This document shows positions 61,296-63,309 of a DNA stretch of 64,000 bases, piece after piece (the first letter of the stretch is position 1; every line of letters starts with the position of its first letter). Source of the stretch: Azoarcus sp. DN11 (GTDB taxonomy: Bacteria; Pseudomonadota; Gammaproteobacteria; Burkholderiales; Rhodocyclaceae); the NCBI RefSeq assembly GCF_003628555.1, contig NZ_CP021731.1, positions 3,596,001 to 3,660,000 on the forward strand, in the 5' to 3' direction. A program made the position numbers and the translations under genes. The notes beneath the pieces are model-generated. The model did no database searches and was not told where the DNA came from. It saw nothing but the letters and a program-made list of their open reading frames with translations.

Positions 61296-62720
61296 TTATG
61301 CGTGGGCGGCAGCGGGGGCGACCACGGGCGCCTCATACGCCTTCTCGCCAGCGATCGTTCGGACCATGTTGTAGAACATGATGAGCATGCCGGTCAGGAA
61401 CATCACGCCTCCCACCAGGCGGATCGTCCAGAACGGGTAGCTCGCCTTCACGCTCTCGACAAAGGAATAGGTCAGCGTACCGTCCGGGTTGGTGGCACGC
61501 CACATCAGGCCCTGCATCACCCCGGCAATCCACATCGAGGCGATGTACAGCACGATGCCGATCGTCGCGATCCAGAAGTGGGCGTTGATCAGGCCCACCG
61601 AGTACATCTGGGTTTTGCCGTACATGCGCGGGATCAGGTAATACATCGAGCCGATCGTGATCATCGCGACCCAGCCGAGCGCGCCCGAATGCACGTGGCC
61701 GATGGTCCAGTCCGTGTAGTGCGACAGGGCATTGACCGTCTTGATCGACATCATCGGGCCTTCGAAGGTCGACATGCCGTAGAAGGAAAGCGCGGTGATC
61801 AGGAACTTCAGGATCGGGTCGGTGCGCAGCTTGTGCCAGGCGCCCGACAGCGTCATCACGCCGTTGATCATGCCGCCCCAGGACGGCGCCAGCAGGATGA
61901 GCGAGAACACCATGCCCACCGACTGGGTCCAGTCCGGCAGCGCCGTGTAGTGCAGGTGGTGCGGACCCGCCCACATATAGGTGAAGATCAGCGCCCAGAA
62001 GTGCACCACCGAGAGCCGGTACGAATACACCGGACGCTCTGCCTGCTTCGGGACGAAGTAGTACATCATCCCGAGGAAGCCCGCGGTGAGGAAGAAACCC
62101 ACCGCGTTGTGCCCGTACCACCACTGGACCATTGCGTCCTGAACGCCCGCGTAGGCCGAGTAGGACTTCGTCAGGGTCACCGGGAGTTCGGCGCTATTGA
62201 CGATGTGGAGCAGCGCGACCGTGAGAATGAAGCCGCCGAAGAACCAGTTCGCGACATAGATATGACTGGTCTTGCGCTTCGCGATCGTGCCGAAGAACAC
62301 GATGGCGTAGGACACCCACACGACGGCGATCAGGATGTCGATCGGCCACTCCAGCTCGGCGTACTCCTTGCCGGTGGTGAGGCCCATCGGCAGGGTGATC
62401 ACCGCCAGGACGATCACCAGCTGCCAGCCCCAGAACGTGAAGCTTGCGAGCCGGGGCGCGAACAGCGGCGTGTGGCAGGTGCGCTGCACGCAGAAATACG
62501 AGGTCGCGAACAGGGCACAGCCGCCAAAAGCGAAAATCACGGCGTTCGTGTGTAGCGGACGCAGCCTGCCGAAGTGCAGCCACTCGCCCAGATTCAGCTC
62601 GGGCCAGACAAGCTGCGCCGCGATGATCACCCCCACCAGCATGCCCACCACTCCCCACACGACCGTCATGATGGAGAACTGGCGGACGACTTTGTAGTTA
62701 TAAGTCGCCTGCGATTGCAT
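61296..62720 (-). CDS. ccoN: cbb3-type oxidase catalytic subunit I (CcoN)
   Basis: High-affinity terminal oxidase core subunit with 12 helices, haem b, haem b3 and CuB. The 474-residue product has the low-spin haem His in [14 protein letters not shown], CuB ligands in [11 protein letters not shown] and AGPHHLHYT, and the haem ligands in [17 protein letters not shown] 62720 follows AAGGGGAAG. Promoters: a weak TTTCAC-17-TAGAAT (62810-62838, minus strand), and possibly read-through from the FNR promoter at 63021-63062. Confidence 0.97.
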
Positions 62721-62909
62721 GGAACTTCCCCTTGAGATGAAGAAAACTTCCGCACCGGTCCGGGAGAGCAGATGTAACGGCTCGCCACGGGCTTGTGACA
62801 TCGGCCGACATTCTATTGCACTGCAGAAATGGGTGAAAGTACCCAGTTACAAAAAAAACCTGTTGTCAGAGTGGTTTTAATTAATCCATCATAGCCCAAA
62901 GTGCTAGGC

Positions 62910-62938
62910 AAAAAAAAGGGTGCGCATCAAGCGCACCC
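62910..62938 (-). terminator. Strong intrinsic terminator between ccoS and ccoN
   Basis: GGGTGCGC and GCGCACCC (62918-62938) form an 8-bp stem with loop TTGAT on the minus strand, followed by eight T (62910-62917). It can end the ccoI-ccoS transcript and/or the candidate small RNA. Confidence 0.9.
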
Positions 62939-63014
62939 CCAACCCCAACAGAGAGACAAATTACCCTTACCAGATTGGCGCGCACGAACAGCCCGCACCA
63001 ACCTCGAAAACCGT
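62910..63014 (-). ncRNA. Candidate FNR-activated small RNA (or attenuated ccoN leader)
   Basis: A 105-nt unit defined by an exactly spaced FNR class II promoter (start predicted at 63014) and a strong intrinsic terminator (T-run 62910-62917). No reading frame longer than a few codons with a ribosome binding site lies inside. The middle contains an unpaired C/U-rich stretch (TTTGTCTCTCTGTTGG, minus strand, about 62950-62965) that could pair with Shine-Dalgarno sequences. The design is like FNR-controlled RNAs FnrS (E. coli) and AniS (Neisseria), with no claim of sequence homology. Confidence 0.55.
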
Positions 63015-63020
63015 GGGTAA

Positions 63021-63062
63021 AGTATGCCCATGCTCGCTGTTCGGGGCTTTGACGTAAGTCAA
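63021..63062 (-). promoter_or_regulatory. FNR class II promoter between ccoS and ccoN
   Basis: A fully symmetric box TTGAC-GTAA-GTCAA (63049-63062) is followed by CATACT (63021-63026) as -10 on the minus strand. The box centre falls at exactly -41.5 from the predicted start 63014, the classical FNR class II geometry. Confidence 0.7.
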
Positions 63063-63105: not shown

Positions 63106-63309
63106 TCACTCGTCCCTGGCGGGTGAAGCCGGACCATCGGCCTTTTCGGGACGGCGGGGTACGGGCGCGTCGCGATCGTCCATGAGCATCCGGTACGCCG
63201 GTCCCTCCATGTCGTCGTACTGGCCGGAGCGCACCGACCACCAGAAAATCACCCCGATCACGAACACCAGTACCACCGAAAGCGGCACGAGGATGTAGAG
63301 ACTTTCCAT
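63106..63309 (-). CDS. ccoS: cbb3 oxidase maturation protein CcoS
   Basis: A 67-residue protein with one N-terminal helix (LYILVPLSVVLVFVIGVIFWW) followed by the CcoS hallmark SVRSGQYDDMEGPAYRML and a polar tail. It is needed for haem and copper insertion into CcoN. It starts 6 nt after the ccoI stop. Confidence 0.95.
   Translation of the reverse strand: MESLYILVPLSVVLVFVIGVIFWWSVRSGQYDDMEGPAYRMLMDDRDAPVPRRPEKADGPASPARDE

Follow-up and report, generated by a model that had tools for sequence, protein, structure and literature searches.

The analysed window is a stretch of 64,000 nucleotides from the genome of Azoarcus sp. DN11. The unit described here lies on its minus strand, in the gap between two ORFs of that strand. 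The upstream ORF is presumably ccoS, as judged from its position and sequence features, and the downstream ORF is taken to be ccoN, from its features and the name given to it in a preliminary description of the sequence. The features of the locus are listed in the direction of transcription.

63106..63309, minus strand: presumed ccoS, the upstream neighbour
63049..63062, minus strand: FNR box TTGACTTACGTCAA, centred at -41.5 relative to the predicted start
63021..63026, minus strand: -10 hexamer CATACT, at -12/-7 if the start is 63014
62910..63014, minus strand: predicted sRNA of 105 nt, from promoter and terminator geometry, fold and covariance model; the start is predicted
62972..63004, minus strand: 5′ stem-loop of variable sequence, from the fold
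62937..62957, minus strand: predicted target-pairing core GUCUCUCUGUUGGGGUUGGGG, from the invariance of UCUGUUGGGGUU and complements at ribosome-binding sites
62910..62938, minus strand: intrinsic terminator, an 8-bp hairpin and 8 U, from the sequence, with its pairs kept in the alignment
62795..62808, minus strand: TCGGCCGATGTCAC, degenerate counterpart of the FNR box that relatives carry for ccoN
61296..62720, minus strand: presumed ccoN, the downstream neighbour, whose leader is not a predicted target

The FNR box, the -10 hexamer at class II spacing and the terminator all stand where the preliminary description had placed them, and that observation is confirmed. The box (63062-63049) had been called perfectly symmetric, which holds for its arms; the 4-nt spacer is asymmetric. 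By sequence, a start at 63014 would put the centre of the box at the class II, activating position. The terminator hairpin, GGGTGCGC-TTGAT-GCGCACCC, occupies 62938-62918 and is followed by eight T at 62917-62910. Folding of 63014-62908 gives an energy of -44.6 kcal/mol (z -4.45), equalled by 0 of 200 shuffles. The fold of the predicted sRNA comprises the 5′ stem-loop, a mainly unpaired segment and the terminator. Two ORFs of at least 40 aa overlap the unit, one of 56 aa in a minus-strand frame that starts 5′ of the promoter and one of 45 aa in a plus-strand frame. The sequence supports the short minus-strand RNA that had been proposed, a non-coding transcript of 105 nt with an FNR promoter of its own and an intrinsic terminator at its end.

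Conservation of the unit in the Rhodocyclaceae

Two sets of loci were compared, which may have species in common: named ccoN loci, the best 80 of a larger number, and 38 genome loci, consisting of the window's own and the top-scoring ones from the family and order-wide samples. The term family refers to that of the source genome, the Rhodocyclaceae, from which 150 genomes were sampled. The covariance model, R1, represents the 3′ half of the RNA and leaves out the promoter and the FNR box.

The core is found upstream of ccoN in 21 of the best 80 named loci, with two mismatches in one of them (L011). These include Denitromonas, Accumulibacter, Dechloromonas, Tepidiphilus and an Azoarcus MAG. A perfect FNR box precedes the core in all 21, at a distance of 74-116 nt, and in all 38 genome loci, window included, at 78-124 nt. 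As the box recurs in relatives though absent from the search model, its conservation is beyond chance. Most of 22 units also have a -10-like hexamer (CATACT, ATAATx, CATTAT and others) some 21-22 nt past the box. Alignment of the 3′ modules of the 21 named loci and the window shows UCUGUUGGGGUU to be invariant in 22/22, together with most of the terminator. The seven modelled terminator pairs form in 100% of alignment cells, and two of them show compensatory change, both within one sequence. Relatives share both the box and the terminator.

At E<=1e-3 R1 matches 119 of the 150 family genomes, and 117 still match at E<=1e-7; the other 31 have no R1 match at E 1e-3. A single strong copy is present in each of the 117 genomes apart from G296, which has two equal copies close to contig ends. 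From an order-wide sample of 200, eight matched at E<1e-15, six of these being Rhodocyclaceae. Many order-level matches with E from 1e-4 to 1e-2 involve the terminator half alone and were not counted as members. The 5′ segment differs in sequence between relatives and its stem-loop tends to persist, with a mean folding z of -2.2 over 59 sequences and 76% of them at z<-1.

Zoogloea dura (L005) and Thauera phenolivorans (L007) have a different sequence upstream of ccoN, where the core is absent; in these species the sRNA may lie elsewhere in the genome or be missing. A weak model match in another genome (L156, G247), preceded by an FNR box and with a core of the GGGGTTAGGGGG type, could be a diverged copy of the sRNA. 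No Rfam 15 family reaches its gathering threshold at the unit, and full-text searches of a literature collection returned no description of the sRNA. Judged by these comparisons the sRNA family is real and conserved and, within the searches made, apparently undescribed.

Complements of the core at ribosome-binding sites

The preliminary description had suggested that a C/U-rich segment at 62950-62965 could pair with ribosome-binding sites. The complementarity is borne out and the extent is not: conserved pairing covers 62957-62937, with GUUGGGGUUGGGG inside it, and is not confined to the C/U-rich stretch. R1 itself returned 15 weak extra matches from relatives (L150-L164), nine of which read as copies of the core in antisense orientation, placed at or close to ribosome-binding sites. 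They belong to a DsrC/TusE-like gene in three genomes, catechol 2,3-dioxygenase, a GcdH-like acyl-CoA dehydrogenase, two lipoprotein-like genes and, in two genomes, a weakly desaturase/AurF-like protein; the dehydrogenase and lipoprotein-like genes were named by reading. A long complement of the core with 83% identity and a duplex energy of -34.6 was also observed in the source genome (L002:1501-1541; G000:C1:3376358-3376406). It is situated between korB- and ferredoxin-like genes (names by reading), on their mRNA strand, and stops some 33 nt short of the ferredoxin start. Read in the sense of the sRNA, this match is antisense to those genes; it is a complement and was ruled out as a paralogue.

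Searching the source genome for CCCCAACAGAGAG at <=2 mismatches gave 48 matches vs 55 for a backward control, so the number is not raised. Of the 47 non-self matches 46 were inspected, and ten read as standing at a plausible start codon, a reading made without a location control. The ten genes encode the phenylacetate-CoA ligase PaaK, PaaN, acetaldehyde dehydrogenase, BoxD (3,4-dehydroadipyl-CoA semialdehyde dehydrogenase), a GST-domain protein like glutathionyl-hydroquinone reductase, pirin, an MBL hydrolase, a polyketide-cyclase/START-like protein, CobJ and an RpoE-like sigma factor, the reductase and sigma factor names being by reading.

Across 101 family genomes, CCCCAACAGAGARA at <=1 mismatch gave at least 74 non-self matches, with two more in the source genome. 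Among the matches listed, 24 of the 74 inspected sites passed a start-codon filter, 18 of them with ATG, and 50 failed. The filter is automatic, and some passes that look spurious (GTG/TTG: L262, L296, L317) are kept in the count. A control pattern that keeps AGAGARA, CACCACCAGAGARA, passed in only 2 of 30 sites, one with ATG; these were taken one per genome, and the L241 match is off-centre. The 24 passing sites include those of a TusE-type gene (3 genomes), SodB, ErpA, an oxygenase-reductase-like protein, an LLM-type monooxygenase-like protein, acetaldehyde dehydrogenase and a BoxD-like gene in G241. The site on glutathione peroxidase (L263) did not clear the filter and is absent from the count. 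It belongs with a group of sites that lie at a greater distance or outside the filter, the others being those of an aromatic FAD hydroxylase-like gene, isocitrate lyase and an amidohydrolase. In two genera (G238, G187), a complement was observed at the ribosome-binding site of a 151-residue protein (L304, L314), for which the L304 sequence gave no Pfam match.

Site density was 82 in 287 Mb of genomes with the sRNA vs 3 in 74 Mb of genomes without it (p 6.6e-6), and the backward control gave 51 vs 7 (p 0.14); normalised to that control, as a ratio of ratios, the difference has a p of 0.09 only. For this count one self-match per sRNA genome was assumed and subtracted, G217 excepted, and G247 was placed in the sRNA-lacking group despite its possible diverged copy.

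Individual genes were assessed against a control of 480 leaders, drawn from ccoN-neighbourhood genes only and with starts set at the first Met of the ORF, which placed the 5% cut at -23.0 kcal/mol. TusE-type leaders fell below the cut in 13/13 sampled family genomes with the sRNA; G207, G209 and G268 had suggested the gene beforehand, and the other ten genomes are independent. Two family genomes in which no sRNA was detected gave one marginal pass (G260, -23.4) and one failure (-21.0). Among dsrC-type paralogues within the family 1/15 passed, and outside the family 0 of 23 dsrC/tusE-type leaders did (23 measured of 27), only about six of which read as close TusE-type orthologues. The source genome itself has no TusE-type match. 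With this good comparative evidence, the TusE-type gene is the best supported single target. SodB leaders passed in 13 of 26 cases (26 measured of 30), the strongest pairing being -44.7 in G220, the query's own genome. In five genomes that lack the sRNA or have a weak match only, SodB leaders gave -12.3 to -26.1, with 2/5 below the cut. The case for SodB as a family-wide target is weakened, because pairing does not track the presence of the sRNA. A CGACTAAAATAGTCGG-like palindrome, reminiscent of an IscR type 1 site, is present in several of the family's sodB and tusE-type leaders (L329-L358, L359-L373, L406).

The core paired with 16 chosen leaders at -25.5 to -44.7; for every one of them the S17-family seed and two scrambled seeds gave weaker pairing. 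BoxD no longer counts as firm target evidence, since the core (-25.5) barely beats one scrambled seed (-24.5).

These data are suggestive of an aerobic regulon. The same FNR-sRNA mechanism could serve another regulon, with a few true targets (such as the TusE-type gene and Fe-S genes) and with aromatic and oxidative-stress sites that mostly reflect chance similarity to a purine-rich, Shine-Dalgarno-like pattern; this is a realistic possibility, though one short of even odds. It is favoured by the similarity of AGAGAG to the Shine-Dalgarno sequence, by the two mismatches in most of the own-genome sites, which are no commoner than in the backward control, and by the scarcely seed-specific pairing of BoxD. 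Most oxygen-linked candidates, moreover, were found in one or two genomes each. According to PMC9765128, Aromatoleum aromaticum EbN1, which has FNR and lacks ArcBA, makes transcripts and proteins for both benzoate routes under essentially all conditions, and it expresses the phenylacetate-CoA ligase genes padJ and paak1 with and without oxygen. Such expression is evidence against box and PaaK being strongly shut off. On the other side stand the control pattern ending in AGAGARA, with its low pass rate at start codons, and the strong complements on oxygen-linked genes: C23O (-38.5), GPx (-38.0) and PaaK (-35.5).

Relation to ccoN and to described small RNAs

The preliminary description offered, as an alternative, a ccoN leader attenuated by the terminator. 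The FNR promoter would then be that of ccoN, and the terminator would set read-through into the cbb3 oxidase genes. The unit does lie on ccoN's strand in the ccoS-ccoN gap; between terminator and ccoN the window has no FNR box at <=2 mismatches, as had been noted there, and ccoN's own box is degenerate both here and in the genus-mate G241 (L204). The relatives speak against it. A further perfect FNR box lies 3′ of the terminator, nearer ccoN, in 21/21 core-bearing named loci and in 36/38 genome loci (45-383 nt downstream of the core), the two exceptions being this window and one locus that ends soon after the core. These boxes are located where the ccoN promoter is expected, at the position matching the degenerate box at 62795-62808 in this window. 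No pairing of ccoN leaders with the RNA was seen (0/21 under the 5% control cut), a result that also goes against the control of cbb3 oxidase envisaged in the preliminary description. Because of the further boxes and the unpaired leaders, an attenuator of ccoN is improbable. In addition, conservation of the core far exceeds the needs of a terminator, and the core has complements at other sites of the genomes. Read-through into ccoN may nevertheless occur in this genome and in G241, where the ccoN box is degenerate; another genus-mate, G294 (L203), retains an intact one, so control of ccoN may have changed inside one genus. Taken as a whole, the interpretation given in the preliminary description is partly supported.

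The preferred reading, a trans-acting sRNA induced by FNR, has its closest functional parallel in FnrS of Escherichia coli. FnrS is FNR-activated, as the gap sRNA would be, and repression of aerobic and oxidative-stress mRNAs is likewise predicted for the latter; PMC10993149 lists sodB among the targets of FnrS. Rfam searches gave no FnrS match for the gap sRNA. Unlike FnrS, its core is different and adjoins the terminator, its gene lies beside ccoN, and its predicted targets include aromatic catabolism. The best reading of the sequence comparison is that the gap sRNA would work like FnrS, with no recognised sequence kinship.

Another short C/U-rich RNA with a terminator is found in the 'toxic sRNA' family RF02278 (S17 of Bordetella pertussis, bdhR1 of Burkholderia), and the gap sRNA resembles it further in its predicted complementarity to the ribosome-binding sites of many mRNAs. 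To our knowledge S17 has no tie to FNR. UGUCUC followed by a terminator is common to both, and in Table 1 of PMC11722255 PaaN is a predicted target of S17 as it is of the gap sRNA. The same source ties the level of S17 to the Bvg mode and, with PMC3110155, describes conservation of S17 as far as Aromatoleum aromaticum and its relation to bdhR1/RF02278. Processing by RNase E is also reported for S17. As the source genome has five RF02278 members at other places, the gap sRNA is most likely a different RNA from that S17 homologue. That the gap sRNA is a diverged member of RF02278 is very improbable, as the model scores 20.6 bits there against a gathering score of 50, the S17-family seed pairs less strongly with the candidate targets, and five real members with a different, GUCUCCUCCACC-type seed are encoded elsewhere in this genome (L440-L444; G000:C1 3481080, 3481386, 3478304, 1523052 and 1227037; 55.7-65.1 bits). 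A perfect FNR box precedes the member at 1227037 (L442), about 140 nt upstream of the modelled RNA.

SorX (RF02784) and SorY (RF02651) of Rhodobacter are RpoH-controlled and have other targets; they share CUCyCUGUUGG followed by a terminator with the gap sRNA. The SorX model gives E 1.7e-5 at the gap sRNA, with 28.6 bits vs a cut-off of 46.6, and the SorY model 21.3 bits vs 111. AniS (RF02274), an FNR-dependent sRNA of Neisseria, is betaproteobacterial and FNR-linked like the gap sRNA, and its model scores 14.7 bits vs a cut-off of 50. Membership of the SorX, SorY, AniS and RF02278 families was rejected, all scores being under the curated cut-offs; SorX may share an origin with the gap sRNA. 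In another bacterial family, two tandem C/U-rich terminator RNAs, the first being CUCCUCCCCCUGUUGGGGUU, lie by a succinyl-CoA synthetase-like gene (L099:1375-1560, minus strand). They resemble a hybrid of the S17 seed and the gap sRNA core, and were set aside as look-alikes.

Proposed mechanism and regulon

At low oxygen FNR would occupy its box and activate transcription, in class II fashion, from about 63014. The transcript would stop at the hairpin and U-run, yielding an RNA of ~105 nt in which the 5′ stem-loop and the terminator stand on either side of the near-invariant, largely single-stranded core GUCUCUCUGUUGGGGUUGGGG. The sRNA would act in trans, probably with the aid of Hfq; an hfq gene is present in the source genome. 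The core would pair with CCCCAACAGAGAG-like sequence that covers the target Shine-Dalgarno or lies immediately upstream of it, and pairing would stop translation of the target mRNA. Such an FNR-induced, trans-acting mechanism is considered probable from the sequence.

Many of the predicted targets are genes of use under oxygen or oxidative stress, for aerobic aromatic and phenylacetate breakdown, oxygenases, reductases, superoxide dismutase and glutathione peroxidase. Since the core complements the start sites of genes of oxygen use, the RNA probably turns those genes down. The chance that the regulon is mainly aerobic is put at about even. The full reading is that a family-wide, FNR-driven sRNA silences translation for the aerobic (hybrid and meta-cleavage) aromatic pathways, oxidative defence and a TusE-type sulfur carrier when anaerobic routes run. 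It is held tentatively, with a probability of roughly 0.4.

If true, it would amount to a post-transcriptional oxygen switch of denitrifying aromatic degraders, in which an unrelated RNA fulfils the role of FnrS. With the sRNA, the family would have an RNA regulon that responds to oxygen, parallel to that of FnrS and based on a different core. Members of the family are important for denitrification, phosphorus removal and pollutant breakdown, and the sRNA makes their choice between aerobic and anaerobic aromatic pathways testable.
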